Part shown: in pieces, positions 6,143-33,400 of the stretch
How positions within the stretch are numbered: position 1 is the stretch's first letter
Layout of the letters: each line of letters opens with the position of its first letter
IMG/VR virus record: IMGVR_UViG_3300025086_000013
Coordinates: 1 to 64,000 of that record
Length of the DNA: 64,000 bases
DNA from: a virus
Direction: 5' to 3' (one strand)
The notes under the pieces: generated by a model
The model's database searches: none
Told to the model about the DNA's origin: nothing
What the model saw: only the letters and a program-made list of their open reading frames with translations
Program-made: the position numbers and the translations under genes

Positions 6143-7036
6143 ATGGGATACACAAGACCAACAACTACTACAAGAGATATGTTAGTGGCAGCACCACTAC
6201 CTAATCATGGAAAAACTTATACAGTTATTCCTCATAAAGATGTCATAGATGTTACTAAAAATCTATTAGACAACAGTGGCTTTATAATAACAAAAGAACT
6301 TTACAGAGCAAATATGAATGCTAAAGTAGCACAAGGAGTATACCACCTTGCTTCAAATGAAGATGAAGAAATGGGCATGATGTTTGCCTGGACTAATTCT
6401 TATGATAAAAGTACACGGTTTCAGTGTGCTGTAGGAGCTTTTGTAAATGTATGTAGCAATGGAATGTTATGTGGAGACATGGCAAACTATGCTAGAAAAC
6501 ATACAGGTAAAGCAGATCATGATATTCATACTCAGATAAGCTCACAAATTAAATCAGCTAATAAGTACTATACTAAGTTAATTGATGATAAGAATAATAT
6601 GAGAAAAATATTTTTACCTAAGAAAAGTCAAGCTGAATTAGTGGGCAGATTATTTTTAGATGAAGAAATCATAGATGCTTCACAAGTTTCTTGTATTAAA
6701 GCAGAAATGAAAGATCCATCATATAATTATAATGCTGATCTTAATAATGCATGGACATTTTACAATCATGTTACACATTCTTTTAAGAAATCTCACCCAA
6801 GAACATGGATGAGTGATCAAGTTAAGTTTCATGAATTTATGACTGCAGAACTATTGAGTCAATCTGGTTTACACCAAATGGATAAAAACTGGACAGATGC
6901 AAACGGTAATGGTCATGTAGAGGATGGAGTTTATGGATCTGCAGCAGTATATAGTCAAGCTATTATGACAGGATCAGACTTTGATGCTGATATGGAAGCT
7001 CAAGATTATGATACTTTTGAAGAATTTAAAATATGA
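6143..7036 (+). CDS. DUF932-like phage/plasmid protein
   Basis: 297 residues. The central segment, with a flexible N-S-Y-D loop, then FQCAVGAFVNVCSNGML, is the hallmark of the DUF932 family of phage and plasmid proteins (TIGR03299-like). The biochemical role of that family is not established. The protein is soluble, with an acidic C-terminal tail ending in EAQDYDTFEEFKI. It is preceded by a host-type promoter and a structured leader, suggesting separately controlled and perhaps high expression. It overlaps the radical SAM gene by 4 bp, so the two are probably co-translated. Confidence 0.8.
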   Translation: MGYTRPTTTTRDMLVAAPLPNHGKTYTVIPHKDVIDVTKNLLDNSGFIITKELYRANMNAKVAQGVYHLASNEDEEMGMMFAWTNSYDKSTRFQCAVGAFVNVCSNGMLCGDMANYARKHTGKADHDIHTQISSQIKSANKYYTKLIDDKNNMRKIFLPKKSQAELVGRLFLDEEIIDASQVSCIKAEMKDPSYNYNADLNNAWTFYNHVTHSFKKSHPRTWMSDQVKFHEFMTAELLSQSGLHQMDKNWTDANGNGHVEDGVYGSAAVYSQAIMTGSDFDADMEAQDYDTFEEFKI

Positions 7037-7899
7037 GTTTAATAACTAAAGATATACGTAAAAGCATGAAGATCCGTCCATCAGGGCGGTCTTCAGACTT
7101 TATATCTCCTAGTTTTGGATGGGGATGTTTATATGACTGTTCATATTGTTATATGAAAAGGCACAAACCAAAAGGTTTATCTATACCAAAAAATGTTAAT
7201 CAGATCCTTACAGAAATAAATACACATGTTATATTTGCACAATTAGAAACAAAAAAACCAAATCAAACACACTCAAAATACATTACTTATGATATAGGTT
7301 GCAATGAAGACTTTGCTCTTCATCTTAAACATCATGAATGGAAAAGAATATTTGAATTTTTTAAACATAATGATAAAGCAATGGGAACATTTGCAACTAA
7401 ATATGTCAACCCAGAATTACTTAAATATAATCCAAAAGAAAAAATAAGAATTAGATTTAGCTTAATGCCTGAAGATAAAAGAAAACTGCATGAGCCTAAT
7501 ACATCTACAATAATAGAAAGAATAAAAGCAATAGATCAATTTATAGAAGCAGGATATGATGTACATGTTAACTTTAGCCCTATTATTGTTTATGATGGTT
7601 GGTTATATGACTATGATGAATTATTTTGCATATTAGATAAAGAGGTGAAAAATAAAAGTAAAGTTTTTGCTGAATGTATATTTTTAACACATGAAATAGA
7701 CAAACATTATAAAAATCTTTTAAAACACCCTGAAACCGAAAAAGATTTAAGAATAGAAGAAATGCAAGAAGAAAAAATTTCACAATTTGGAGGTAATAAT
7801 CTTAGATATAGAACAGAATTAAAAAGACAATTTATAAATAAATTTGTAGAACTGCATGATACGTTAATACCTTGGAATAAAATTAGATATATATTTTAA
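7033..7899 (+). CDS. Radical SAM protein, spore photoproduct lyase-like
   Basis: 288 residues. C32-x3-C36-x2-C39 in GCLYDCSYCYM is the radical SAM motif that binds a 4Fe-4S cluster and S-adenosylmethionine. The layout resembles the spore photoproduct lyase family: the GC-x3-C-x-YCY opening, NFSPIIVYDGW in the second half, and a C-terminal region with LRYRTELK. Known members reverse a UV-induced thymine dimer. A non-sporulating host makes a different substrate likely, or a general DNA repair or base modification role. The start overlaps the DUF932-like gene. The family is well supported; the substrate is not. Confidence 0.8.
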   Translation: MSLITKDIRKSMKIRPSGRSSDFISPSFGWGCLYDCSYCYMKRHKPKGLSIPKNVNQILTEINTHVIFAQLETKKPNQTHSKYITYDIGCNEDFALHLKHHEWKRIFEFFKHNDKAMGTFATKYVNPELLKYNPKEKIRIRFSLMPEDKRKLHEPNTSTIIERIKAIDQFIEAGYDVHVNFSPIIVYDGWLYDYDELFCILDKEVKNKSKVFAECIFLTHEIDKHYKNLLKHPETEKDLRIEEMQEEKISQFGGNNLRYRTELKRQFINKFVELHDTLIPWNKIRYIF

Positions 7900-8741: not shown

Positions 8742-8861
8742 TTATCTACCTTGACCTCTATAAGGTTTTTTATAAGAATTTTGAGATTTACTAGCATTTT
8801 TGCTATGAACTCCTTTTCTTTTTTTACCACCTACACTTCTAAAAGTAAATGTGTTTTTCAT
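8742..8861 (-). CDS. Very basic small protein, 39 aa
   Basis: It reads MKNTFTFRSVGGKKRKGVHS at the start and ends in YRGQGR, with about a third Lys or Arg and almost no acidic residues. The ATG overlaps the stop of the upstream 250-aa gene (TAATG), which fixes the start. Such basic peptides in phage structural blocks often bind DNA or RNA in the particle; that is inference. It is the last gene of the leftward block. Confidence 0.7.
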   Translation of the reverse strand: MKNTFTFRSVGGKKRKGVHSKNASKSQNSYKKPYRGQGR

Positions 8862-9613
8862 TAATTAATCTTTCTATATTCTTTATTAATTCTTTTTTGT
8901 ATTCTTTTTGTTTTTCCAGATTTACCCTTTCCTTTTTTAGCATCTTTTTCTTTACTAGCTCTTCTTTTATTAGATAATTTAGTGAGTTTTTTATTCCAGT
9001 TATGGCTTGGTGTATTAACTTCCCTCTTTATATCTGACATGTTATCTCCCTTTCTTTCCCCTTCTGTTTTTTTCTCCCCTGGAGTTTGCTCTCTTCCTGG
9101 TTCACCACCACTTTGATATTTTTTTGCACCACCATCGTTATACATTCCAGGTACTTTCATTCCTTTATGATTAACTGTTTGTGGACCACCAAATTGATAT
9201 TTATTAGATTTATTTGTATTTGGATTAGATCTATTCTTAGTACCAGGATTGTCACCAAAATTTGTTTTATAATCTGATTTATTTGAATCAATCTTATCAG
9301 GAAATACAGCATTAGTTAAACCAGTCAGATCAGAAATTTCTTTTGCAGCAAGTGCAGGAAGAATCCACTTACCCATTCTTTTAATACCGCCCCAAGCTGA
9401 ACTACCTAATTTACTAGCAGCGTCTCTGTTTGTAATTTCATTCTTTTTATTTTTAGAACCTGTTGGTCTACCTCTTTTTTTACCACTAGTAGGATTTTGA
9501 TTACCTGATTTACCAGCATTAGGTTTGCCACCACCTTTACCACCTTTGCCACCTTTACCACCTTTTTTACCTTTGGGGCCACCAGCTTTCATTTTGTATA
9601 GTTCTTTTGCCAT
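8861..9613 (-). CDS. Gly/Lys-rich basic protein with AT-hook-like motif
   Basis: 250 residues of low complexity. The N-terminus holds a GGKGGKGGKGGG tract (near residues 17-28), then KKRGRPTGSKNKK near 44-56, whose R-G-R-P core is an AT-hook for binding the DNA minor groove. A short hydrophobic patch near 82-95 (WILPALAAKEI) follows, then KYQFGG, KGMKVPGM and KKYQSGG modules near 140-170. The Lys/Arg-rich end (NWNKKLTKL... to NKEYRKIN) is clearly related to the end of the protein at 12232-13047, so the two are paralogues. It is probably a DNA-binding virion component; the Q-x-G-G modules link it to the large virion proteins. Confidence 0.75.
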   Translation of the reverse strand: MAKELYKMKAGGPKGKKGGKGGKGGKGGGKPNAGKSGNQNPTSGKKRGRPTGSKNKKNEITNRDAASKLGSSAWGGIKRMGKWILPALAAKEISDLTGLTNAVFPDKIDSNKSDYKTNFGDNPGTKNRSNPNTNKSNKYQFGGPQTVNHKGMKVPGMYNDGGAKKYQSGGEPGREQTPGEKKTEGERKGDNMSDIKREVNTPSHNWNKKLTKLSNKRRASKEKDAKKGKGKSGKTKRIQKRINKEYRKIN

Positions 9614-9615
9614 GA

Positions 9616-10011
9616 TTATTTCTTTTTAAATTTTTCTACGGATCTACCACCAAAGTAGGCTCCTATTACTGTTATTAATACTAATTGTAAAAGATCTGTC
9701 CATTTCTCTTCTACTTCAAATTTAATTGTACCAGCATCAATAAATATTAATAACATAGTACATACTATTAAAAAAATAAGAACCATAGGTCTTACATTTT
9801 TACTTAACCAACTATCAGAATTCATGTCTGCCGTCCAACGGTCAGTTATGTTTTTTTCCATTTGAGCCTCATGACTCAATATAAGTTCTTTTAGCTTTCT
9901 TTTAGCTTCTAGTTTTTCATCTTTTGTTGTTACTAGGTTGTCTATGACCCCACCTACTGATTCTACCAAGTTGCTTCCTGCACTTGAAAAAATCTTTCCT
10001 AGTATTCCCAT
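9616..10011 (-). CDS. Holin, 3TM family
   Basis: 131 residues. A helical N-terminal part (GILGKIFSSAGSNLVESVGG, then a charged segment with KRKLKELILSHEAQ) leads to WLSKNVRPMVLIFLIVCTML and a second hydrophobic helix LVLITVIGAYFGG. The W-x-x-x-x-R-P signature just before the first membrane helix is that of the Holin_3TMs family. It would form inner-membrane lesions that time lysis. Nearby spanin-like and lipoprotein genes fit a dispersed lysis set; the wall-cutting enzymes appear to be domains of the large virion protein at 54324-61307. Confidence 0.85.
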   Translation of the reverse strand: MGILGKIFSSAGSNLVESVGGVIDNLVTTKDEKLEAKRKLKELILSHEAQMEKNITDRWTADMNSDSWLSKNVRPMVLIFLIVCTMLLIFIDAGTIKFEVEEKWTDLLQLVLITVIGAYFGGRSVEKFKKK

Positions 10012-10028: not shown

Positions 10029-10463
10029 TTATAAAATCCCGTTGGGCCCACATGCCCCTCCTCTTTTTAATTCACCTCTTGATAAATCAGTTGTTCCATC
10101 TTCATATTCAACCGTGTGTTTTCCCGGTATATCTTGTTTAGCATTAGGTGAATCATAATTAGGAAACTCACCTGAATTTATTCTATTTAACATTTCCTCT
10201 CTAAGAGCAGGATTAGTAATTTGATTTGCTCTATTAGTATTTACATTAGTTAAACTATCTGTAGCTTCATTATATTTTTTAGTTAAATCAATATATCTTG
10301 TCATTCTTTCTTTAGATGAAGTAGGATTATGAATAACAGGAAATCTTTGATCTATGCTACCTTTAGATTGTATTTGTGCATTTTCAATTTCTTCTTTAAG
10401 TTTGGCATCATTATTACCACCTTCTTGAAATCTTTTTTTCATTTGTTTATAAAAACCGTCCAT
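10029..10463 (-). CDS. Virion-type accessory protein with GPNGIL end
   Basis: 144 residues, mostly polar and helical, with FQEGGNND near the N-terminus. It ends in KRGGACGPNGIL, nearly the same ending as the proteins at 11386-12213 (GGAVGPHGIL) and 12232-13047 (GGAKGPHGIL). It has no signal peptide or membrane segment. Shared ends and the Q-x-G-G motif place it in the same family of modular particle proteins; its exact function is unknown. Confidence 0.65.
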   Translation of the reverse strand: MDGFYKQMKKRFQEGGNNDAKLKEEIENAQIQSKGSIDQRFPVIHNPTSSKERMTRYIDLTKKYNEATDSLTNVNTNRANQITNPALREEMLNRINSGEFPNYDSPNAKQDIPGKHTVEYEDGTTDLSRGELKRGGACGPNGIL

Positions 10464-10464
10464 A

Positions 10465-11211
10465 TTAATTTACTTTATATTTAACTTTACCATGTTCTAT
10501 GTAAACACCTTTAGGTCTACGTATAACTTGTCCGTTAAGATTATATAATGTATTATCTTGAAGAGATTTTTCTATTATTTCTTCTATACCACTATTACAT
10601 GGCATACCTGTATCACAATCTATATATTCAGTAAAAATAATTTCTTCATATTCTATTTCTATAATAGTGTCAGTAACAACTAAAGTGTCTGTAATAAAAA
10701 CATCTACATATTCTGTTATGTATTCAATTACATCAATAAATAATGTATCAGTTTCAATAACTTCTACGTACTCTATAACCGGTACAAATACAGTGTCAGC
10801 ATCTGAATATACTGTTACAGTATCTATTAAATAAACATACTCTGTAATAAAATTATCTACAAAAACAGTATCAAGAATAAAATTATCTACAAATATTGTG
10901 TCTGTAACAAATACATCTATATATTCTATTACATCAACATAAACTGTATCACATAATACCTCTATTGCACATTCTGCAACTGTAGTTGCAACAACATCAT
11001 CTCCTTCATCAGAAGCGTCTACACAGTCTACATAATCATCATTAATCCATGATGCTTGAACACAACCATCTGGAGAATATACAGTCCAATTTTCTGGATC
11101 ATCTCCACAATAAAAACCACCTGCTATAGCACAATCTAAACAATTGTTGCTTTCCTGTGAATAGAGTCCTAGACTCATTATCACAAATAAAAACGTAAAT
11201 AACTTTTTCAT
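10465..11211 (-). CDS. Secreted protein with T9SS type A-like C-terminal domain
   Basis: 248 residues. A clear signal peptide (MKKLFTFLFVIMSLGLYSQE) is followed by a Cys-containing region (about residues 20-90) and a very acidic repeat region in which D-T-[ILV]-[FVY]-V units recur (about 88-200). The C-terminus, with LYNLNGQVI, PKGVYIEHGK and VKYKVN, matches the type A sorting domain that directs Bacteroidetes proteins through the type IX secretion system. The protein is therefore predicted to cross both membranes and reach the cell surface. T9SS cargo in a phage is unusual. The function of the repeats is unknown, possibly adhesion or surface masking. Confidence 0.8.
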   Translation of the reverse strand: MKKLFTFLFVIMSLGLYSQESNNCLDCAIAGGFYCGDDPENWTVYSPDGCVQASWINDDYVDCVDASDEGDDVVATTVAECAIEVLCDTVYVDVIEYIDVFVTDTIFVDNFILDTVFVDNFITEYVYLIDTVTVYSDADTVFVPVIEYVEVIETDTLFIDVIEYITEYVDVFITDTLVVTDTIIEIEYEEIIFTEYIDCDTGMPCNSGIEEIIEKSLQDNTLYNLNGQVIRRPKGVYIEHGKVKYKVN

Positions 11212-11213
11212 AT

Positions 11214-11384
11214 CTATTCTATTATTATTACTTTAATTGTATCAGCTTTAATTGTATCTTCATTACAGCAAGATTCTTCAATAATAGGTTTGGCAACATA
11301 ATCAGGATTATATTTATCTCCAGGATTAAATATTCCGCATCCTACAACAATCAATACCCATAAAACTGCTAATTCTCTCATCAT
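11214..11384 (-). CDS. Small lipoprotein, 56 aa (possible outer-membrane spanin)
   Basis: The start is placed at tandem ATGs just after the upstream stop (TAATATGATG); the longer frame from 11420 runs into the previous gene. MMRELAVLWVLIVVGCGIF is a lipoprotein signal with a lipobox ending V-G-C, so the mature protein would begin at Cys and be about 40 residues, with ESCCNED near its middle. Small lipoproteins near holin genes are often outer-membrane spanin subunits, but the mature part lacks the Pro-rich stretch of classical Rz1, so this remains a suggestion. Confidence 0.6.
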   Translation of the reverse strand: MMRELAVLWVLIVVGCGIFNPGDKYNPDYVAKPIIEESCCNEDTIKADTIKVIIIE

Positions 11385-11385
11385 A

Positions 11386-12213
11386 TTATAAAATTCCATG
11401 TGGTCCCACTGCACCACCACTTTTGTATTTTTTAGAACCTCCGTACTTTTTAATTGTACCTTTTTCTTTTTTCTTTAAAAAAATATCTGCTTGAGTTATT
11501 TGACCGTCTTTATTCATATCAGGAAAACCTCCTCCTTTTTTATACATTTTTTTAGAACCTCCATATTTTTTTGTATGAAAATCAGCCATTTTATCCATTT
11601 GTGGATCAGATGACATTCCATCACTTGGGCCAGCAACCGCATTTTTAATACCTGCTCCTATATTTCTAACGCCTTTGGCACTTTCATCTGCCCAAACACC
11701 TGCTGCTCTAGCTGGAAAACTTCCTTTCATAGCAGATCCAACACCTTCATTTCTAAGTCTACTCATAAAACCTCCTCCTGGTCCTTCAAAACCACTTTGA
11801 GCTTTACGCATTCCTGGAACTTTCATACCTTTTTCAGTATAAATAGGTCCTCCATCTTGTTTTTTATTACCATCTTTCCAATCAGATACTGAATACTTCT
11901 TTTGTCTAATTGGATCTGTTTCTTGTCTATGGTACTTTTTCTGTGGTTCTCTTTTAGAATTAGGATTTAAACCATACTGGTCATTTCTCATTTTAATAGC
12001 ACCCCTAGTTTGATTTCTAACCTGACTACCAGTTCTAGATGTTCCATCAAACCTCATATTTTTAACTCTTGATTCTAATCGCTTTTCCTCAAATGACTTA
12101 TGTTTTTTCTTATTTTTTGGTTTAGATTTACCAAAAATTCTTTTCAAAAGAGATCCACCCTTAGATCCACCTCTTTGATACTTAATTCCAGCTTTTTTCA
12201 TATTTGCAGGCAT
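11386..12213 (-). CDS. Modular basic protein with Q-x-G-G and GPHGIL modules
   Basis: 275 residues. The N-terminus has IKYQRGGSKGGS and a strongly basic segment (KSKPKNKKKHKSFEEKRLES, about residues 28-50). Then come KKQDGGPIYTEKGMKVPGM, AQSGFEGPGGGF, repeated KKYGGSKK and MYKKGGGFPD. A short EF-hand-like loop, DMNKDGQITQAD (near residue 232), is visible. It ends in GGAVGPHGIL. It is related in layout to the protein at 12232-13047. It is probably a virion or DNA-packing accessory protein; no enzyme motif is seen. Confidence 0.7.
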   Translation of the reverse strand: MPANMKKAGIKYQRGGSKGGSLLKRIFGKSKPKNKKKHKSFEEKRLESRVKNMRFDGTSRTGSQVRNQTRGAIKMRNDQYGLNPNSKREPQKKYHRQETDPIRQKKYSVSDWKDGNKKQDGGPIYTEKGMKVPGMRKAQSGFEGPGGGFMSRLRNEGVGSAMKGSFPARAAGVWADESAKGVRNIGAGIKNAVAGPSDGMSSDPQMDKMADFHTKKYGGSKKMYKKGGGFPDMNKDGQITQADIFLKKKEKGTIKKYGGSKKYKSGGAVGPHGIL

Positions 12214-12231: not shown

Positions 12232-13047
12232 TTATAATATTCCGTGTGGTCCTTTTGCTCCACCATGTTTAAAATTAAACATGCTTTTAAGACCCCTTGC
12301 AGCTCCACGAGCAGCATTCCCAATTTGATTACCCGCCCACATTCCTGTGTTCTTAGCATAATCTCCTGGTCCATCAAAAGATGCAGGATCAACATATTTT
12401 TTACCATATTCAAAACCCTTTTGAGCTCTTGGTGTAGTTTCAGCCACTTGATCTTTAGGATTTATTTTGTAATACTCCTTATTAATTCTTTTCTGAACTC
12501 TAGACGTATCTTTACCCTTTTCTTTTCTTTTTGTTCTTTTTTTGGTTAACCTATTAAGTTTCTCATTCCAATTAGGTTTATCTTTTTCTATAGCATCCGT
12601 TGTTCTATCAAACGTAAATTTGTTGATATCATCATTTGTTTGATTTTGACCACCATCTTGCATCATACCAGGAACTCTCGTTCCTTTTGCATTATAGACA
12701 GGACCACCAGCTTGCATATGTTTACCTTTTTTATCCTTGAGGTTTCCTTTTATTTCCCAGTTAATATTACTTTCAGGTTTCTTTTTATCCCAAACATTTT
12801 TATATGGATTAGATTTTCTTTTCCACATTTCATTCATATTACTTATATCACTTTTATAATTAGGATTATATTGTTTACCACCTTCTCTTACTTGTCTATT
12901 TACTCTTTTTTCCATGTACTTATCAAGAAGATCTTTATCTTTCTTAGTAAGTCCTCCCGGCTTTCCTTTAGCTTTAGAAAGCTTAAAACCTCTTTTTCCT
13001 TTTGCTCCTCCTTTTTGATACTTATTATTTACGTTTCTTACAGTCAT
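12232..13047 (-). CDS. Modular basic protein, paralogue of the 8861 and 11386 genes
   Basis: 271 residues. It opens with NNKYQKGGAKGKRGF, continues with a basic helix-rich region, then HMQAGGPVYNAKGTRVPGMM and QDGGQNQ near residue 110-135. A Lys/Arg-rich stretch (NWNEKLNRLTKKR to INKEYYKIN, about 160-195) is closely similar to the end of the 8861-9613 protein. AQKGFEYGKKY and GGAKGPHGIL follow at the end. So this protein joins the 8861-type basic domain to the 11386-type tail, a sign of module shuffling. A structural or DNA-binding role is inferred. Confidence 0.7.
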   Translation of the reverse strand: MTVRNVNNKYQKGGAKGKRGFKLSKAKGKPGGLTKKDKDLLDKYMEKRVNRQVREGGKQYNPNYKSDISNMNEMWKRKSNPYKNVWDKKKPESNINWEIKGNLKDKKGKHMQAGGPVYNAKGTRVPGMMQDGGQNQTNDDINKFTFDRTTDAIEKDKPNWNEKLNRLTKKRTKRKEKGKDTSRVQKRINKEYYKINPKDQVAETTPRAQKGFEYGKKYVDPASFDGPGDYAKNTGMWAGNQIGNAARGAARGLKSMFNFKHGGAKGPHGIL

Positions 13048-13576: not shown

Positions 13577-14674
13577 TTATCTAAATTGATAATTTAGACC
13601 AATATTAAATGTGTTTAGATTTCTGTCCCAATATTTCAACCATTCACTTTCAAGAAATATACCAAATGATTTATTTAATCTAACTCCAGCTATAACACCT
13701 ATGTTATAATCAAACCATTGTCCATCATTAAAAGATTCATAGCTAAAATTATCATCCCCTTGGACGTGCCAATGATATGGCAATAAAGAAGCCCAGCTAT
13801 GTAGCCAGTATTTAGGAGAATAATGATAGAAGTCTAGGCCTGCTATTACTGAAACAGTTCCCATATCTCCTATTTTATTAAACTCACGTTTATTAAAATC
13901 TCTAACTATATTTTCATAAACATGTGTTCTAAAGTCTAAATCAGAGTCTGCAACTCTGTTACCGTCTGGCCCAGTCCAGAAAAAATTCATTTGATCAACT
14001 TGAAAATCACCATCTAGATCCATAGAGTAGGCGTGGTCTGCATAACCATAGTCATAAGCTAGGTCCCACCAAAAATTATTTTCTAAATATTCCTCTATTG
14101 GATTAAATCCATATGGTCTATGTGTACGGTATGCTGTTCCTAAAGAAAGGTTCAGTCTAGCACCAACCTTAAGTCTACCTCTTAGTTCTGCTTGTGTATA
14201 TTTAAGATCTATTAAACCGTTTTGTTGATGTTCAACTCTAGCAAGCCAATTGTCACCTAAGTATCTAACAAAGTATCGTTGATTATTGTAGTTTCTTAAC
14301 TGTTGTTGACCTTCATCGTATTGTAATAAAAACTCAAAACCGTTAACTGCACCTATATTAGAAGATAGAGATACATTGTTTTCAGATCCATCGTAGAATT
14401 GTGTTACTTTTTTCTCATAAGAAAATCTGGCAATTTTTCGTATGCCAAATGTAAATCTATAATCAGGGGTAGCTTCAGGAGTAATGTTTAATACCTCACC
14501 ATCTTGTCGTACAAAGTATCTAGATTCTGGAACAAGAGATGTTCCACCTGAAAAACTAGTATAGATAGTAGAGTATTTAAATACCTTATCAAAAGTTTGT
14601 TCAATTACTGATTGCGCTTGTATTGCACAGGAGTACAATACAAACACAATTAACATTTGTAAAAACTTATTCAT
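13577..14674 (-). CDS. Outer-membrane beta-barrel protein
   Basis: 365 residues with a signal peptide (MNKFLQMLIVFVLYSCAIQA, cleavage probably after QA). The mature part is a series of amphipathic strands with many Tyr, Phe and Trp, for example NQRYFVRYLGDNWLARVEHQ and ARLNLSLGTAYRTH. It ends in FNIGLNYQFR, close to the terminal aromatic strand of Gram-negative barrels. D-D-G-D-like loops (YSMDLDGDFQVDQ) may bind calcium. It should insert in the host outer membrane; possible jobs are blocking superinfection, a pore or a receptor mimic. A phage-borne barrel next to a T9SS-type secreted protein and a thioredoxin-fold protein suggests envelope remodelling. Confidence 0.75.
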   Translation of the reverse strand: MNKFLQMLIVFVLYSCAIQAQSVIEQTFDKVFKYSTIYTSFSGGTSLVPESRYFVRQDGEVLNITPEATPDYRFTFGIRKIARFSYEKKVTQFYDGSENNVSLSSNIGAVNGFEFLLQYDEGQQQLRNYNNQRYFVRYLGDNWLARVEHQQNGLIDLKYTQAELRGRLKVGARLNLSLGTAYRTHRPYGFNPIEEYLENNFWWDLAYDYGYADHAYSMDLDGDFQVDQMNFFWTGPDGNRVADSDLDFRTHVYENIVRDFNKREFNKIGDMGTVSVIAGLDFYHYSPKYWLHSWASLLPYHWHVQGDDNFSYESFNDGQWFDYNIGVIAGVRLNKSFGIFLESEWLKYWDRNLNTFNIGLNYQFR

Positions 14675-15183: not shown

Positions 15184-15549
15184 TTAAAATTTATCTAACA
15201 TTAATTCGTTTATCTCTTTTTGTACTTTTTTAGGAGTTGACTCTGGACAAAGACTAAAAGATATGTCACCTTCAAATCTTTCTATTTCTTCTCCATCATT
15301 AAATACTATAATAGTAGGTAATACAGTTATCTTATTTTTTTTAGCCGCATTAGTATTAAGATCTATTCTATATACCTCTGCTTCTTCTAAATTTTCTAAC
15401 CAAGTACACTCATTTTTAGAATTCCAATCAGCCCAAAACTCTACAACAGTTACACCAACTTGACTATTGTTAAATGTTTTGTCTGTTAAAACTGTTTGAG
15501 CATCTATAGTTGCACCTATCATTAAAAATATTGTTATTAAATATTTCAT
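15184..15549 (-). CDS. Periplasmic thioredoxin-fold protein lacking CxxC
   Basis: 121 residues with a signal peptide (MKYLITIFLMIGATIDAQ). The rest follows the thioredoxin fold: VTVVEFWADW before the active-site helix, VYRIDLNTN, and ITVLPTIIVFNDGEEI with the cis-proline after L. At the place of W-C-G-P-C the protein has W-N-S-K-N-E-C, so the first redox cysteine is missing and only a later one remains. It is unlikely to be a standard disulfide oxidoreductase. It may be a chaperone-like or single-Cys variant serving the Cys-rich secreted proteins nearby, which is inference. Confidence 0.75.
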   Translation of the reverse strand: MKYLITIFLMIGATIDAQTVLTDKTFNNSQVGVTVVEFWADWNSKNECTWLENLEEAEVYRIDLNTNAAKKNKITVLPTIIVFNDGEEIERFEGDISFSLCPESTPKKVQKEINELMLDKF

Positions 15550-15830
15550 TTAATGTCATCTATTTTATCCTCTATCCTTATAAGTCTATCTTCCAATTTC
15601 TTTACATTTTCTTCAGTATTCTTTATAGAGAGTCTAATATTTTCATCCTTCATCTGAAATTCCATTCTTGTTACTTCAGGATCAGGAGGTGCAGGTAATT
15701 CTTTAGCTTCTGCTATATCAGCTTGTAGCATAAACCACATGCTAATAACAGTGGTCATTGCAAAACCTATACCTACTAAAGTTTTTATACTTACTTTAAA
15801 GCCTGTATCTTCATTTAACTCTTTTGCCAT
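15546..15830 (-). CDS. Membrane-anchored coiled-coil protein (spanin-like)
   Basis: 94 residues from the ATG at 15830, chosen because it lies just after the upstream stop; the frame from 15929 would run inside the previous gene. One membrane helix (VGIGFAMTTVISMWFMLQ) follows a short N-terminus, then a linker with LPAPPDPEVTR and a heptad coiled coil (NVKKLEDRLIRIEDKIDDIK). This is the layout of an inner-membrane spanin subunit, though many phage membrane proteins share it. The start of the thioredoxin-fold gene overlaps its stop by 4 bp. Confidence 0.6.
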   Translation of the reverse strand: MAKELNEDTGFKVSIKTLVGIGFAMTTVISMWFMLQADIAEAKELPAPPDPEVTRMEFQMKDENIRLSIKNTEENVKKLEDRLIRIEDKIDDIK

Positions 15831-15832
15831 AA

Positions 15833-16207
15833 CTATGCTGCTGAGAATACACCAACCTCCAATATAGGAGCTCCACTTGCTGAAAATGCTAATACATCTA
15901 CTAAGGTTGTCCAAGGAAACATAGCCCATTCTCCACCTTGTAATATTATTTCTCCACCTACTGCTGCAGATAATTGAATTGTTATTACAATACCACCTTT
16001 AGCTTCTCTATTTCTTAAATAAACAATTGTACCTGTTGCATATTCATCAGCTTCAAGAATTTTTTCTCCTGCTGCTGAATTAGTATCTATAGATCTACTA
16101 GTTACACCTCCAGATACTGCAGTATATGTAAAACTTTTATCTATTGAAATAGGATCAGAAGTTATTCCTGAAACATCTGCTTTTAATTGTGCTGTTAATG
16201 TTGCCAT
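15833..16207 (-). CDS. Small beta-rich particle protein (MATLT family, member 2)
   Basis: 124 residues beginning MATLTAQLKADVSGI. The centre has TIVYLRNREAKG and the end GEWAMFPW then LEVGVFSAA. It is closest to the next gene (16233-16610), which shares MATLTAQ, TVIYLRN, an F-P-W segment and the VGVFS ending. Tandem duplication is evident. It is probably an external decoration or tail protein. Confidence 0.7.
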   Translation of the reverse strand: MATLTAQLKADVSGITSDPISIDKSFTYTAVSGGVTSRSIDTNSAAGEKILEADEYATGTIVYLRNREAKGGIVITIQLSAAVGGEIILQGGEWAMFPWTTLVDVLAFSASGAPILEVGVFSAA

Positions 16208-17044: not shown

Positions 17045-17638
17045 CTAATTGTATTTCATTTTAATAAAACCACCTCGTCTTAATGACTCAGCTTTTTCTT
17101 TAATTGCTCTTATATCTCCTGGTGACATCTTTCTATTATTAGGAGGATTCATTTCCATAGGAGTTAGTGGTCTGTTTCTTTCATTAATAACATCAAACGC
17201 TGATCCCCCCATTTGTCTAGGTGTATTTGCATTTGTCATATCTTTTTGTGGTTTTCTACCAGAATTAATAAGTTGTTGCTGTGCAGATTCTGCTGCTTGA
17301 ACTTCCATTTGCTTTTTTAATTCTATATTTTCTCTCATTGCTGCCTCAACAGTATTTATTAATGACTGTTGATCTTTCATGCCTTGCATATAAGTTTGTG
17401 CTTGACTTCTAGCTCTTTCATCTAACATTAGGTTTTGATTACCACCCAACATGCTATCTCTTTGCCAAAGAGCAAAATTATTTTGATCTTTCATAAGATC
17501 TTGTTTTGCTTTTCCTAAAGCATCTTGATTATATTGCTGCCTTGTCATTTTAGACATTTGCTTCTTAGGAGTTTTACCTCCTTCCTGAAACATACCCGGA
17601 ACCTTAGTTCCTTTTCTATTAAATACAGGTCTAGCCAT
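17045..17638 (-). CDS. Helical particle protein with KVPGM and Q-x-G-G module
   Basis: 197 residues. The first 25 carry NRKGTKVPGMFQEGGKTPKK, the same module found in the 8861, 11386 and 12232 proteins. The rest is Gln/Asn/Met-rich and helical (coiled-coil-like near residues 85-125, with Q-E-rich heptads). It ends with LRRGGFIKMKYN. No enzyme motif is seen. The N-terminal module may be an anchoring or cleaved sequence. Confidence 0.7.
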   Translation of the reverse strand: MARPVFNRKGTKVPGMFQEGGKTPKKQMSKMTRQQYNQDALGKAKQDLMKDQNNFALWQRDSMLGGNQNLMLDERARSQAQTYMQGMKDQQSLINTVEAAMRENIELKKQMEVQAAESAQQQLINSGRKPQKDMTNANTPRQMGGSAFDVINERNRPLTPMEMNPPNNRKMSPGDIRAIKEKAESLRRGGFIKMKYN

Positions 17639-19542: not shown

Positions 19543-21402
19543 ATGGAATTAAATAACAAAATTCTTAGTGATATTACTGTCCATATGAAATATGCACGGT
19601 ATAATGCAGAATTAAAAAGAAGAGAGACCTGGAAAGAATTGGTCACTAGAAATATGGAAATGCACATAAAGACATATCCAAAACTTATGAATGAAATTAT
19701 AACTGCATATCGTCATGTAGAAGACAAAAAAGTATTACCATCTATGAGGTCAATGCAGTTTGGTGGTAAACCAATTGAGATTAGTCCCAATAGAATATAT
19801 AACTGTGCATACCTTCCTATAGATCATATAGATGCTTTTAGTGAAACCATGTTTTTATTACTTGGCGGAACTGGTGTTGGTTACTCTGTACAAAGACATC
19901 ATGTTGATAAACTTCCATTAATTAATAAACCATATGTAAAAAGAACTAGACGTTATTTAATTAGTGACTCTATTGAGGGGTGGGCAGATGCCATTAAGAT
20001 GTTAATGAAATCTTATTTAAATGGTAAAAGTTCACGTATAGTATTTGACTATTCAGATATTAGACCTAAAGGTGCAAGGTTAGTTACATCAGGAGGTAAA
20101 GCCCCTGGACCACAACCATTAAAAGAATGTATACTTAAAATTACAGGCATACTAGATAACAAAGAAGATGGAGATGCATTGTCTACATTAGAAACGCATG
20201 ATATTGTCTGTCACATTGCGGATGCTGTATTAGCTGGTGGTATTAGACGTGCTGCATTAATTAGTTTATTTAGTGCTGCTGATGATGAAATGATATCTTG
20301 TAAAGCTGGTGCTTGGTGGGAACTTAATCCACAACGTGGTAGAGCTAACAACTCTGCTGTTCTTATGAGACATAAGATAACTAAGTCTTTCTTTATGGAT
20401 CTATGGAAAAGGGTAGAGCTAAGCAAAGCCGGTGAACCTGGTATATACTTTAACAATGACAAAGACTGGGGAACTAATCCTTGTTGTGAGATTGCCTTAC
20501 GTCCTTTTCAGTTTTGCAATCTTTGTGAAGTCAATGTAAGTAACGTTGAGTCCCAAAAAGATTTAGAGTCAAGAGTTAAAGCTGCTGCATTTATAGGAAC
20601 ACTTCAAGCAGGATACACTAACTTCCACTATCTCAGACCAGTATGGCAAGAGACTACAGAAAAAGATGCATTAATTGGTGTGTCTATGACTGGTATAGGA
20701 TCTGGTAGAATACTGGGTTATGATATGGAAGCAGCAGCTTCTGTGGTAAAGAAAGAGAATGCAAGAGTGGCTAAGTTAATTGGAATTAAGAAGGCAGCTA
20801 GATGCACAACAGTAAAACCTGCTGGTACAACATCATTAACATTAGGAACTAGTTCTGGCATTCATGCATGGCATAATGACTACTATGTAAGAAGAATACG
20901 TGTAGGTAAGAATGAAGCTATATATGGATATCTTGCTAAGAATCATCCTGATCTAGTAGAAGATTGTGTTTTCCGTGCTCATGATACTGCCGTAATAAGT
21001 ATACCACAAAAAGCCCCGGAAGGCTCTATCTTAAGAACTGAATCTGCTTTTCAACTATTAGAAAGAGTAAAGAGAGTAGCAACTGAGTGGGTAAAGACTG
21101 GGCATAGAACCGGGTCTAATACTCATAATGTTTCTGCTACAATTAGTTTAAAAGATGAAGACTGGGATCTAGCTGGTGACTGGATGTGGAAAAACAGAGA
21201 TCACTATAATGGTCTAGCTGTTCTTCCATATGATGGTGGTACATATACTCAAGCTCCGTTTGAAGATATTGATGAAGAGAAGTTTAATCAAATGGCCAAG
21301 TCACTAATGGATATTGATCTGTCTAAAATTGTTGAACAAGATGATGAAACTAATTTAACAGGAGAACTAGCATGTGCTGGTGGTGCTTGTGAAGTCAAGT
21401 AA
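19543..21402 (+). CDS. nrdJ: Class II (B12-dependent) ribonucleotide reductase, monomeric type
   Basis: 619 residues. It makes deoxynucleoside triphosphates from ribonucleotides using adenosylcobalamin. Matching the Lactobacillus leichmannii enzyme: C88 (YNCAYLP) as one redox cysteine, C314 in NPCCE as the radical cysteine, C325 in FCNLCEV 11 residues later as in the model enzyme (C408/C419), the VKPAGTTS segment, and a C-terminal CAGGAC pair with the same spacing as C731/C736. The N-terminal phrase SMRSMQFGGKP is typical of the monomeric subgroup. The protein is about 120 residues shorter than the model enzyme, partly between C88 and C314, so allosteric features may differ. It is driven from the promoter at 19235-19264. 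Confidence 0.92.
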   Translation: MELNNKILSDITVHMKYARYNAELKRRETWKELVTRNMEMHIKTYPKLMNEIITAYRHVEDKKVLPSMRSMQFGGKPIEISPNRIYNCAYLPIDHIDAFSETMFLLLGGTGVGYSVQRHHVDKLPLINKPYVKRTRRYLISDSIEGWADAIKMLMKSYLNGKSSRIVFDYSDIRPKGARLVTSGGKAPGPQPLKECILKITGILDNKEDGDALSTLETHDIVCHIADAVLAGGIRRAALISLFSAADDEMISCKAGAWWELNPQRGRANNSAVLMRHKITKSFFMDLWKRVELSKAGEPGIYFNNDKDWGTNPCCEIALRPFQFCNLCEVNVSNVESQKDLESRVKAAAFIGTLQAGYTNFHYLRPVWQETTEKDALIGVSMTGIGSGRILGYDMEAAASVVKKENARVAKLIGIKKAARCTTVKPAGTTSLTLGTSSGIHAWHNDYYVRRIRVGKNEAIYGYLAKNHPDLVEDCVFRAHDTAVISIPQKAPEGSILRTESAFQLLERVKRVATEWVKTGHRTGSNTHNVSATISLKDEDWDLAGDWMWKNRDHYNGLAVLPYDGGTYTQAPFEDIDEEKFNQMAKSLMDIDLSKIVEQDDETNLTGELACAGGACEVK

Positions 21403-27455: not shown

Positions 27456-30400
27456 TTACTTATAACATTTTTGCATTTGTTCTAAAAACTGTTCTAAGTT
27501 AAACTGATTATTTGAATCTTCATAATGTTTTATAAGATCTTTTAGTCTATCTCCTCCTAACTTCATGCTTGATATTATTTTTCCTTTTTGCATATCTGTT
27601 AAATCTCCCCACACTTCTGCTAATTTAAACTTATCATTTTGATTAACATCTTTAGATCCTATATCATCTTTAGTTGTACTTGCTTGTACATTGTCTGCTT
27701 TACCAAAATTAAGTACAACTTTTTTTGGTGCTTGTTCTTCTAGTCCCTTTCCTTTTATATTTTTATTCACAATTTCTTCTGCTTTATCTATAGTGGTATC
27801 ACCAACTATTTTATCTTTTTTTATAGCTCTTAAACCTTCATTGCTTGCAGCTACTCTTTCTATATCAGTATCACTAAGAGTTTTTTTCTTTTCATCTTTT
27901 ATCCACTTGTTTAATTTATCTTTTGTATAGTTTTCTTTATACTTAGATAGATCACCAAAGTTATTACCTTTTATTGAAACTTGTTTTTGTTTTTCTCTAA
28001 TTGTTTTGTAAGATGTTCTTCTTTGTAATTTTCCATCTTTACCAATATTAAAAATAAATGCTATAGGTGTTTGTTGTTTACTTCCATAAGGATCAAATTC
28101 TACATATTCAGCTCTTGTTCCATATGCAGCACTTTGTGCTTCATCTACATTAAGCATATCTTTTTGGGCTTTATATTGTCCTTCTGTATATGGAGTAAAT
28201 ATTTTTTCTAACCTGTAGTGTTTTATTTCTGTCCCGTCATCAACTAAATTACCTTTGTCATTTCGTTTTTTTACTGGAACCTCTATTTTGACCGCATAAG
28301 GAAATTTATGAATCTCTTGAGTCTGACCCTCATAATCTACTTCTACTGCTCTAAAACCTGCAGAATTAATTTTTTTAGAATTTTTCCACATCTTACTCTT
28401 TTTGTCATACTTATTCCATTTTCTATATTGTTTTTTACCTTCTTTATATACTATTTTACTTTGTCTAGTACCCGCTGCTTGATCTATAATAAGAGTATTA
28501 TCTTCTAAGTTTAATACTACAGGAGACATTCCTGGTGACTTAACTCCTTCAATTGATGCAGCAACATCTGTATCTATTTTTATAATTTTTTTATCTGTTT
28601 CTTTTATATCATAAACATATAATGTTAATTCATTTGTTGTATCTCTTAACCAGTCTTTAGTAAAATTATATTTTGCATCTGCCACTTTTTCAAAACCTTC
28701 TGACTTTATCATTTTTTCTTTACCTCCAGCTTCTTCAATGTTTAATTCTCCTCTATTTGTAACTTCATAAACTACCATCTTTCCAGTCTTAGGATCTTTA
28801 AACTCAACTAATTTAGATTCTCCTACATTTATGTTTATTTTTTTAGCACTTTCTTCTCTTCTAACAGTTGTGGTTTTTTCCCCTTTTATAATTTTCTTTA
28901 TGTTGCTTTCATCCATTGGTATATTAGCAGCTGTACCTGGTTTTGCTTTTTTCTTTACAGTTGGATTTTTAAATCCAAATTCTTCTAATAATCTTTTTTG
29001 TAAAAAGTCATAAGTCTTTGGTGCTTTTTCTTTTAACTTATATATATCTTCTACACCTACACCCTCTTCATTAAACACAACAGTAGCACCTGTTTCTTCT
29101 CCTGCCTGTTTTATTGCTTCTATAGCATCATTAATTTTATTTTGATTATCTTCAAGTTCACTATCAGTATAGTAAGAACTATCATCCATACCTTTATTCT
29201 TTTTAACAGGGATAGCAAATACATTAGGTAAATTTCTAAGACTACTAAAACCAACATTACCTTGTTGAGCTTCATTATCTGATATAACAAATATTTTATT
29301 TGATTGTTCTTCTATTGTATTCCTTTTTAAATTCTTTTTTAATTCTACTTCACCTTTAAAATCATATTCTTTCTTTTGTAGAACACTAACATATACTACT
29401 GTTTTATCTTTATTTGTTCTATTTAATTTTTGCAATAAATGATCAGCTGATGATGATTCAAAATATAATAATGAATATTCTGCTAATTCGCTAAAGGTCA
29501 TACCAAAAATGTTTTTATAGTCTTCATCTAAACCTTTATACCCTGCTTTTGCTGGTGGTTGTTTTGCAAATAAATTTGCCACATCAGAAGAAGCTTGTAA
29601 AAATCTTTCAAGTAAAACTGGAGGAACTATATTTAAATATGATCCAGCTCTAAATTGAAAACCATCTTTAACTAATAGGTAATTTATTAAATGTGTTACT
29701 GCAGCTCTTGATTTTTTGTCACCATCTAATAATGAAACTAACCCTGCTTGTAGTTTTTGAATTTGACTATCTTTTAATTGTGTCCATGAATTAACTTTAG
29801 CTCTATTTATTCCAGCTTTATTAACAGCTGTATTGGCTTTATCATTAAATAAAAACTCATTAATAAAATCATTTTTAATACCTTCTTTTTTAAGATAATC
29901 TCTAAGACTTGTTATTACTTCTACAATATCTACTGGTCCATCCATTTCTGGATATATTAAAGAATTTCTAACAGAAGATAATGCTTCTGGATCTGCTATA
30001 TCTTTTAGTAATTTTATATATGCAATTCCATCAACAAAACTTAATAAGTCTTTTCTAGCTTTTGATCTTGCAGCTTTTGCAAGAGCTGGGTTTAATGCAC
30101 CCATGTTAGCACTTATAACACTATTAATCTTTTTAAAGGGTTGAGATGCATATATAACTTGTTTTTGTAATAGTTTTTGTGTAAACTGTTTCCATATTCC
30201 ATAAAAGGTGGATTGCATTGTTGTACCTTTTTTTGGTTTAAATATTTTTCTTACATCAATAGATAATTCACTTTCACCCATTTCATTATCTGAGGCTTCT
30301 ATACCTAAAGAAGCAACAGAAGCTTCAGCAGCTTCAACAGCGTCTACATCTCTACCCATACCTTTAAACATATTTGCAAAAGCTGATAACTCTTTTGTTT

Positions 30401-33400
30401 GTTCAGATATAGTTATCATATTTAAAAACTGATTAAGTATAGCAATTTCACTTCTAATATAATCAGTTGACATTCTTGTACCAGTCTCTCTTGCTTCTTG
30501 TTCTAATGCCTCATAGTTTTCTATATGTTCTTCTAATAATGAATCATTAACAGGAACTTGTTTGGCTTCTTTAGCTATTTCTGAAGAGTAGCTAGTTAAA
30601 CTTTTTAATCTTTTTATAACTAAACCTTTAATACCAGGATCAGTAGGTTTATCTTTATGCATTGCAGAAAAATACATTTCTTTTATTTGAGGATGGTTCA
30701 CTAACATAACACTTGTATAAGGATCTATACCTAACGCAACCATATTTGCAACAACCCCTAAAGCATGTTTATTTAAACCCATTTTTCCAGCAAGAACATG
30801 TTTACCGTTATCTGTCATACCAGTTATAAATGAAGATATCCAATATTGAACTCTATCTCCTTGTTTATTTTGCTTACCTGTTTTAGGATCTATAATATAA
30901 TCTACATCATAAGTATTATAACTGTGACTATTAAATCTAGGAATAGGAAGAGATACAAAATCATTTTTTTCTCTAAGTGATATTTTAAAATCTTTTAACC
31001 ATCCTAAATATACATTTGGTAATACAACTGATCCAATATTTCTTGCGCCTTCTTTTACATTAGTATATGCTATGGTCTGGCCATTCATATTATCTATATC
31101 CATACCAGCTTCTCCTGCTTTTGCAGCTAAAGTTGGAAGTCTATCTTTTATTTTTTCCCACATGTCAGCTAAAGGATCAATTACAGCTGGTTCATTTTTA
31201 ATACCTAATCTACGCCCAGGTAATACTTTAGTCATACCATTATTACCAAGAAGAGCAAATTTATAATCTAATATATTATTATTGTAACCACCAGCATAAG
31301 GTTCAGAATATAAAACTCCTGTTTGTTTTTTTCCTTTAGAATCTTTATATGTATATTCTTTTTTATTTGATTCTCTAAATTCTTTATATTCATTTTTTGT
31401 TACAGGTAGTCCTAAAACTTTTAATGCTCCTGCTATATGTTTATTCTTTCCAAAGAATTCCATGATTTGTGCATCAGTAGCTTTTTCATTTACATCTATT
31501 TCATCTTTATATAAAGGATCAAATCCACCTGTTTCATTTTCATTTTTAGTTGGATCATAATCATATCCATTTTCTTTTGCCCATTTAGCTTTTACATTTT
31601 TAGGATCTGTTCCAGATAGTAGTCCAGATTTTTTATCCTTAGTTGCCCATGTTAAGTATTCATCAAATATAACATCAGCAGGTTTTTCAATTTCATACTT
31701 GCTATCATATAAAATACCCTTATTACTTCTCCATTTTTTAACAGCCATTGCCATGGAAGAACCTTTATCATTTTGATATTCTAGTGTTTTATATCTTATA
31801 TAGTCTGCAAATTGTTCATTTAAAGTAGCACCTTTACCATATTCTTTAAAATTACCTTGAGTATCAGTATAAAATTCTTTGTTTTGAATATATAATTTAT
31901 CAATATCAAAGTCAGCTCCTGATACTTCAATTAGTTCTCTAGGAAATACTGCAGTAGATCCTTTAGCAGCTGACATAAAATCAACAATTTTTAAATTTAT
32001 TGCTGAGTGTTTATCTTGAGAAGGAATACGTACACCAAATTGTTTTGCAATAGCATCTGGTATAGGTTTAGTAGGATCTAAGTTTTCCATTATTTCTCTG
32101 AAGTGTGGTGGTAATATAAATTCAGCATATACTAAATCAGTAGGAATTAATTGATTGTTCTCATCTTTCATTAATTTACCATCCTTATTTCTTTTATACT
32201 CTTGAACATCATACCTTAATCTATCTATATATAAATCACCAACTTCTAATCCTGAAAATTTTCCATCTGTATTTTCAGTAGCTACTGGATTCCCTTCATT
32301 ATCTAATGCTAATTTAGATTTTTCTGAATCACTCATTCTTTTAAAACCTTCTGTACTTACAACAGTCCATGCAATAGGGTTGCCATCTTTATCTTTAGCA
32401 TCAACTCTTTTAACTACATTTACACCATAGTCAGACATAAGAACTACATTATGACCTGGTTGTTTTTCACTTAATACACCCTTACTAAAGAATGTCATAA
32501 ATAGTTCTGACATTTTTTGTATAGTAATAGGGTTATTTAATTCATAATTAGGTTGTCCTGTTATTCTATCATAGGAAAAGAATTCTAAGTATTGTGATTT
32601 AGATTGAGAAGATTCTAATGCTGCTATAGCAAAATCTAGAAAAGATTTTAAATCTAAAGAAACTTCATTAGCATTAAAAGATTTATCTATTTCACCTAAT
32701 GCAGTACTAAGATCAAAGATAAGGCTTCTTCTGTCTAAGTACTTAAGCTCTACTCTATTAGATATAGAATAGTGATATAAGCTTTTAAGTTCTCCTATTG
32801 TTATTGTCTTATCACCAATAACAACTTCAACACTAGGATCCTGTTCATTAAGTATTAAATTTTTAATTTGTCTAGGATCAACAATTTCTGTCTTATTAGA
32901 AGGTGTTACTTGTTGAAGTCTCATGTAATCTGCATTAAGCACAGATACATTTTTTGAATTTATAAAAGTATTTGATTCAAATAGATCTGCATGTTCTGCA
33001 ATATTTTTATTAAACATTTTAGAAGCAGATTTAGGAACAGCCATTATAACTCTATTGTTTTCTTTTTCCCATGTCTCTAATTTTGTTCTTAAATTATATT
33101 GTTTTATTCTATGTGGATAAGGAGTTCTTACACCTGTATTTACATCTATGTAACTATCATCGTCTGGTATAAGATATGTTTCTGACATTTTTATAAATAT
33201 ACTTCCATCTCCATATACCCACTTCTTAGAGTTTAATTGTGCATCTAATTGTTTATATCCTATACTACTTTTATCAGCAGCACCAAACATTTCTTCACCT
33301 GTTATTTGTTCTCCTTTTTCAAGTCTATCTATTAGATTTGCTTGTTGTTTAGTTAATTCACCAAGACCAAAATACTTATATCTAAAACCTTTTAATGTAC

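Follow-up and report, generated by a model that had tools for sequence, protein, structure and literature searches.

The locus and its gene family

The window analysed here is a 64,000-nt stretch contained in a 94.9-kb IMG/VR virus record (IMGVR_UViG_3300025086_000013), which is AT-rich, with 30% GC. On its minus strand lies a complete open reading frame with an ATG start (10465-11211, stop codon included), which encodes a secreted acidic protein of 248 aa, hereafter T. The starts of T and its neighbours are not preceded by Shine-Dalgarno-like sequences, which would fit a Bacteroidota host. T shares its strand with the giant late-type genes, and a holin gene is located nearby.

Several other genes of the window can be recognized. 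A 5442-aa open reading frame on the minus strand (27456-43784) is surrounded by further giant reading frames of 879-2327 aa in what is presumably the late region. The plus strand encodes a radical-SAM protein (7033-7899) that matches spore photoproduct lyase (PF20903, 97 bits), possibly a phage DNA-repair gene, as well as a protein matched by class II (B12-dependent) ribonucleotide reductase models (19543-21402). Additionally, among the proteins encoded on the minus strand at 8861-9613, 10029-10463, 11386-12213, 12232-13047 and 17045-17638, four K/G-rich ones share an internal KG[MT][KR]VPGM motif, and three neighbours (10029, 11386 and 12232) end in GGxxGP[HN]GIL. These shared tags perhaps mark virion proteins.

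Pattern-plus-tblastn scans of IMG/VR located relatives of T at no fewer than 212 loci, 80 of which were retrieved, and removal of near-duplicates left 53 non-redundant members for alignment. Homologues with the same layout occur at 81 loci, establishing as real the frame that an earlier note on this DNA had picked out. The members have in common a signal peptide that ends in ...Q, a Cys-rich module resembling the LDL receptor class A (LDL-A) module, with the motif C..C...G.YCGDD..NWT.YSP.GCV...W.ND...DC.D..DE, an acidic linker free of Lys and Arg, and a conserved C-terminal tail. Nine Cys are present in 50 of the 53. Comparison with isolated phages returned no relevant match for T. Judged by these sequences, a large phage family with Bacteroidota-type hosts carries a small, very acidic, predicted secreted protein of this kind.

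Signal peptide, N-terminal module and linker

By inspection, residues 1-18 of T (11158-11211, minus strand) form a Sec signal peptide, MKKLFTFLFVIMSLGLYS, with predicted cleavage before Gln19 of the following QES; this Gln is invariant in a 51-member alignment (A3). The signal peptide already named in the earlier note is thus of Sec type and conserved across the family.

The mature protein begins with a Cys-rich module (residues 24-81; 10969-11142, minus strand) containing six conserved Cys and the pattern GCVQ..WIND..DC.DASDE. AlphaFold2 models the region from about residue 21 to 80 with a pLDDT of 89-95, and all 13 structural matches at Z>=2 are LDL-A modules, with Z values of only 2.0-3.2. 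Profile searches of PDB sequences likewise led to VLDLR, LRP1, glucosidase II beta and CD320 (best E 2.9e-4). The LDL-A family model PF00057 gives the window protein 14.7 bits, below its gathering score of 24.1, and matches 32 of 51 family members at E<=0.1, again below cut-off (best E 4e-4). The module resembles LDL-A in its calcium-cage-like C..DxSDE signature, its six Cys and its best fold matches, but differs in that an Asn replaces the fourth LDL-A Cys. A Marinimicrobia protein bridges the two sequence types: inside an LDL-A array (47.6 bits), it contains a module like that of T in which the canonical fourth Cys is kept. We regard the N-terminal module of T as probably LDL-A-like and predicted to bind Ca2+, which is less than a proven LDL-A domain. 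Within the cellular genome scan, such modules were found only in the Marinimicrobia protein and in a protein of a Crocinitomicaceae metagenome-assembled genome (MAG), the latter being the sole hit of a profile scan of 395 Bacteroidota genomes; this homologue passes PF00057 with 26.7 bits.

Between module and tail lies a linker (residues 87-198; 10618-10953, minus strand) recognized by its composition, rich in D-T and V-I-E-Y sequence and modelled at low confidence (pLDDT mostly <50). Its 113 residues in the window include 28 Asp/Glu and 16 Thr and not a single Lys or Arg, so that the acidic, D-T-rich character noticed earlier can be assigned to this segment. Across the family, the linker ranges from 48 to 178 residues, with a mean of 26 Asp/Glu and 0 Lys/Arg.

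A probable short sorting signal at the C-terminus

T ends in LYNLNGQVIRRPKGVYIEHGKVKYKVN, and residues 206-248 (10468-10596, minus strand) constitute a candidate short sorting signal (short CTD) for type IX secretion (T9SS), identified by hhalign, reciprocal searches and published motif definitions (PMC11969387). The earlier note had described T as cargo with a type A T9SS domain and had staked this on a match to TIGR04183/Por profiles, counting a missing match against it; T gave no match over cut-off. Neither TIGR04183 nor PF18962 was found in T up to E 10 in NCBIfam or E 1 in Pfam, the whole 94.9-kb record likewise gave no match, and TIGR04183 exceeded its cut-off in 0 of 50 T-bearing records. 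When the T tail was compared with long CTD profiles, nothing beyond its motif-B stretch could be aligned (2-36%).

A second class of signal has been described by Ye et al. (2025) in Prevotella intermedia, where short tails of 40-51 residues are predicted to form one three-stranded sheet (PMC11969387). Their motif B comprises a Tyr, an invariant Gly and a basic residue, followed by a GxY-Ile motif D and a basic motif E, with 1-6 aa between B and D as against 10-17 in long CTDs (PMC11969387). Both cleavage and glycosylation were demonstrated for cargo with these tails, and recognition of the tails by PorV was modelled (PMC11969387). Moreover, GFP fusions to HBP35 required at minimum its C-terminal 22 residues, which contain motifs D and E (PMC3120885).

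The tail of T reads in the same order: motif B is YNLNGQVI (223-230), motif D is GVYI (235-238) and motif E is GKVKYK, within a family consensus of YN[LI].GQ.I.xPEGxYI.xGKxKYK. In motif B, Gly is present in 53 of 53 members and Tyr in 50, with Arg or Lys at position 231 in 44. The spacer between B and D is 4 aa (RRPK) in an alignment ungapped there, and it is because of this short spacing that the curated type A models miss T. Motif D has x-Tyr-Ile throughout (53/53), its first position being Gly in 43 members, Ser in 9 and Asp in 1, where Prevotella has an invariant Gly. Overall, Gly227, Tyr237, Ile238 and Gly241 are identical in all 53 members. The T/G-I cleavage site described for those tails has a possible counterpart in Ser207-Gly208-Ile209, about 41 residues before the C-terminus. 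AlphaFold2 predicts a helix and then short strands for the tail (pLDDT 60-76).

For reference, ten short tails were collected from the 540 kb read of the 568-kb second replicon of P. nigrescens (filed as a plasmid); they were selected because they carry the motifs and because the species is related to P. intermedia, and are not proven cargo. Aligned to these by hhalign, 31 columns of the T tail (53 members) reached a probability of 95.9% with a score of 35.9, a value attained by none of 200 column shuffles (maximum 16.4), by the reversed tail (8.0) or by barrel segments (<=16.2), while genuine long CTDs scored 25-26 against the same profile. The motif-based choice of reference tails makes this comparison somewhat favourable; the shuffles retain the composition of T, and the motifs used had been published for short tails. 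In the reciprocal direction, the T-tail HMM ranked sorting-tail-like C-termini first to sixth among 1361 P. nigrescens reading frames (best E 2.2e-5), and the short-CTD HMM, run against 3377 phage reading frames, returned T members and phage long-CTD proteins as 43 of its top 45 hits, in a list read by eye.

Searches at genome scale were far less discriminating. In 395 Bacteroidota genomes, the T-tail profile yielded virtually no credible match at E 0.001, a 47-column model giving one weak match, and a single short-tail peptide returned nothing useful from the same genomes. A 29-column model produced many sub-threshold matches, of which 30 loci were inspected: six covered the motif-B part inside canonical T9SS-type tails, and about fifteen were YIENGKIKY matches within one unrelated protein family, so that genome-wide E-values are uninformative for so short a motif.

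A tail this short and unmatched by the curated T9SS profiles might instead be a decayed remnant or a convergent beta-hairpin without a sorting role, on a protein that stays periplasmic. We consider this very unlikely, since few parts of T are as conserved as the tail, the four invariant residues of the tail occupy the positions that define short signals, and shuffled columns fail to reach its score. Likely, then, the tail of T belongs to the short signal class known from P. intermedia, which the long profile does not detect, and we hold sorting of T by the T9SS to be likely.

An outer-membrane barrel and lysis genes nearby

Five genes upstream of T, the window encodes a protein with a signal peptide and a predicted outer-membrane beta-barrel (13577-14674, minus strand), modelled by AlphaFold2 with a pLDDT of 84 and a pTM of 0.77. 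Fold searches gave Z values of up to 11 to CymA, OmpG and TamA-type barrels, a similarity that is general only; PorV and FadL are absent among the matches listed, which excludes nothing. In NCBIfam, no PorP/SprF or PorV model matched any of 41 barrel members up to E 0.1, model and profile searches assigned the barrel to no named family, and isolated phages yielded no relevant match. Linkage to T is nearly universal: among the 81 T loci, two are cut off, and 78 of the remaining 79 have the barrel gene upstream, the other being without it. It is immediately upstream in 58 and two or three genes away in 19 (77 within three genes), the five-gene distance being found only in the window.

Two further conserved neighbours are a single-TM protein with a coiled-coil tail (15546-15929, minus strand; true start probably near 15830) and a secreted protein of thioredoxin fold in which the CxxC active site is missing (15184-15549, minus strand; PF00085, 27.3 bits). 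Each lies at most eight genes downstream of T in 63 loci, often followed by an M15 endolysin and a holin; the window is an exception, both genes being upstream of the barrel. Its own holin gene is at 9616-10011 on the minus strand (PHROG 3427, E 1.4e-31; PF11351). The thioredoxin-fold, TM coiled-coil and barrel genes are kept together even in phages without T, possibly forming an unrecognized outer-membrane or lysis module. Directly upstream of T, a small putative lipoprotein (11214-11399, minus strand; lipobox LIVVGC) is present in a minority of relatives (cluster 29, with 9 rows, some of them near-identical copies of the window locus) and contains DTI/DTV repeats resembling the T linker; it may pair with T.

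This neighbourhood raises the alternative that T itself serves lysis from the periplasm or the outer membrane, either like a spanin or by disrupting the outer membrane, and that its C-terminal hairpin binds the barrel instead of directing export. The holin, M15 endolysin, TM coiled-coil and inactive thioredoxin-like genes indeed surround T at most loci, the length of the linker would suit the spanning of a gap, and nine conserved Cys (50/53) leave one potentially free for dimerization. We nonetheless judge a lysis role improbable, as the homology of the tail to short T9SS signals far exceeds that of shuffles, sister phages have canonical T9SS cargo in the niche of T, and phages without T retain the barrel, TM-coil and thioredoxin genes, implying that T is not needed for lysis there.

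Sister phages and a cellular homologue

Searching by the barrel instead of by T uncovered many loci that lack T. Among 50 records chosen in this way, 17 contain a protein over the TIGR04183 cut-off, encoded in 14 of them immediately upstream of the barrel gene with a gap of -6 to 87 nt. The two such proteins checked in full, large and Cys-rich with canonical T9SS type A tails, lie directly before the barrel on the plus strand (L155:5485-7959 and L163:5680-7971) and score 45.8 and 41 bits against a cut-off of 23. Occupation of this barrel-adjacent niche by long-CTD genes suggests that two kinds of T9SS-type cargo are alternative neighbours of one barrel family. T and long-CTD cargo were not seen together in any of the records, an exclusivity that is provisional given that the records are mostly fragments. 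Many barrel loci carry neither cargo, which suggests that the barrel has a role of its own.

The linkage could also mean that the tail, while homologous to short T9SS tails, acts independently of the T9SS by docking on the phage barrel, which would then export or anchor T. The barrel gene's presence upstream of T at almost every assessable locus would suit this, as would the dedicated barrel/cargo pairs known for type B T9SS cargo (PMC9143113, PMC12618676) and a possible lack of T9SS in the phage host. Many phages, however, have the barrel but no such cargo, and the barrel shows no family or specific structural match to known protein-exporting barrels, leaving this arrangement, in our estimate, somewhat less probable still than a lysis role.

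A cellular relative adds to the case for T9SS sorting. The Crocinitomicaceae MAG protein combines two T-type N-modules with Kazal and PKD domains and a T9SS tail (PF18962, 36.1 bits; cut-off 27), and 50 T9SS tails were counted in its genome. Together with the long-tailed sister proteins, it suggests by analogy of sequence that proteins of the T kind are exported to the surface. Thus, what survives of the proposal of type A cargo is a T9SS sorting signal on a phage protein, now resting on the short-CTD match, the long cargo of sister phages and the cellular homologue; its framing as a long TIGR04183-type domain does not.

A model for surface display

From the computed family, architecture, tail homology, synteny and cargo replacement, we infer a course of secretion, cleavage, barrel partnership, timing and function. 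T would be exported by Sec and lose its signal peptide, whereupon the host T9SS translocon, probably via PorV, would recognize its last 41-43 residues or so as a minimal short type A-like signal. T would then cross the outer membrane, its tail probably being cut near Ser207/Gly208, and the remainder would stay on the surface or be released. Displayed in this way would be a flexible acidic stalk, devoid of Lys and Arg, bearing an LDL-A-like module that probably binds Ca2+. The nearby barrel may act as a partner, either as an attachment site or as a dedicated shuttle. Production late in infection is probable for T, given its place on the late-gene strand close to the holin and other genes of the lysis region. 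We put the probability of T9SS export together with surface display at roughly 0.7. The idea of T9SS export was already in the earlier note; the LDL-A-like module, the nearby outer-membrane barrel and the lysis-gene context were not part of that note.

As to what such display would achieve, our first choice, held tentatively and at less than even odds, is a late change of the surface in which receptors are masked, blocking further adsorption to infected cells or debris. Adhesion or decoy roles and the lysis role may share the remaining probability; the earlier note had suggested that T might block other phages or alter adhesion. More speculatively, and somewhat less likely again, a widespread phage group might possess a self-contained display module, in which cargo with a minimal signal is paired with its own outer-membrane shuttle or anchor barrel, unrelated to PorV or PorP/SprF, short- and long-signal cargo being interchangeable and the host surface being remodelled before lysis.

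If the T9SS reading is correct, short T9SS signals extend beyond Prevotella, and a large phage group keeps dedicated T9SS cargo as a conserved late-region gene, not as an occasional passenger. T would offer a directly testable case of a phage employing the host secretion system to remodel the surface. Furthermore, standard T9SS profiles miss such cargo, so that phage and bacterial T9SS cargo is probably under-counted.

Comparison with known systems

The closest counterparts are the short CTDs of P. intermedia (PMC11969387), with which T shares motifs B, D and E in order, a 4-aa B-D gap, a tail of about 41-43 aa, few predicted strands and a small-residue/Ile site before the tail that resembles the cleavage site. 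It differs in being encoded by phages, short signals having been reported only from P. intermedia; in the replacement of the motif-D Gly by Ser or Asp in 10 of 53 members; in the helix and Cys pair that precede the hairpin; and in that motif B lies slightly farther from the putative cleavage site. With the T9SS type A domain (TIGR04183/PF18962), T has the motif types in common, and the canonical form occurs beside the same barrel in sister phages, whereas T itself is unmatched by the profile, the first strands and the long spacer between B and D being missing from it.

Type B cargo with an adjacent PorP/SprF shuttle (PMC9143113, PMC12618676) likewise pairs a surface cargo gene with an outer-membrane barrel gene, but PorP/SprF and PorV models do not recognize the phage barrel, the tail of T is type A-like and the gene order is barrel, then T.

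Among phages, Cryophage genes were found to carry T9SS sorting signals, and a hijacking of host export, possibly for superinfection exclusion, was suggested (Bellas et al. 2020, PMC7468147). That cargo consists of variable enzymes and PA14 proteins with type A signals, whereas T forms a single conserved family of small proteins that are not enzymes, carry a short signal and have a barrel gene linked to them. In the open-access literature searched, we found no description of a short-signal phage family with an LDL-A-like module and a barrel. Phage-encoded T9SS cargo as such was thus already reported in 2020; what is new here is the short signal outside Prevotella, the phage family around it, the LDL-A-like module and the linked barrel.
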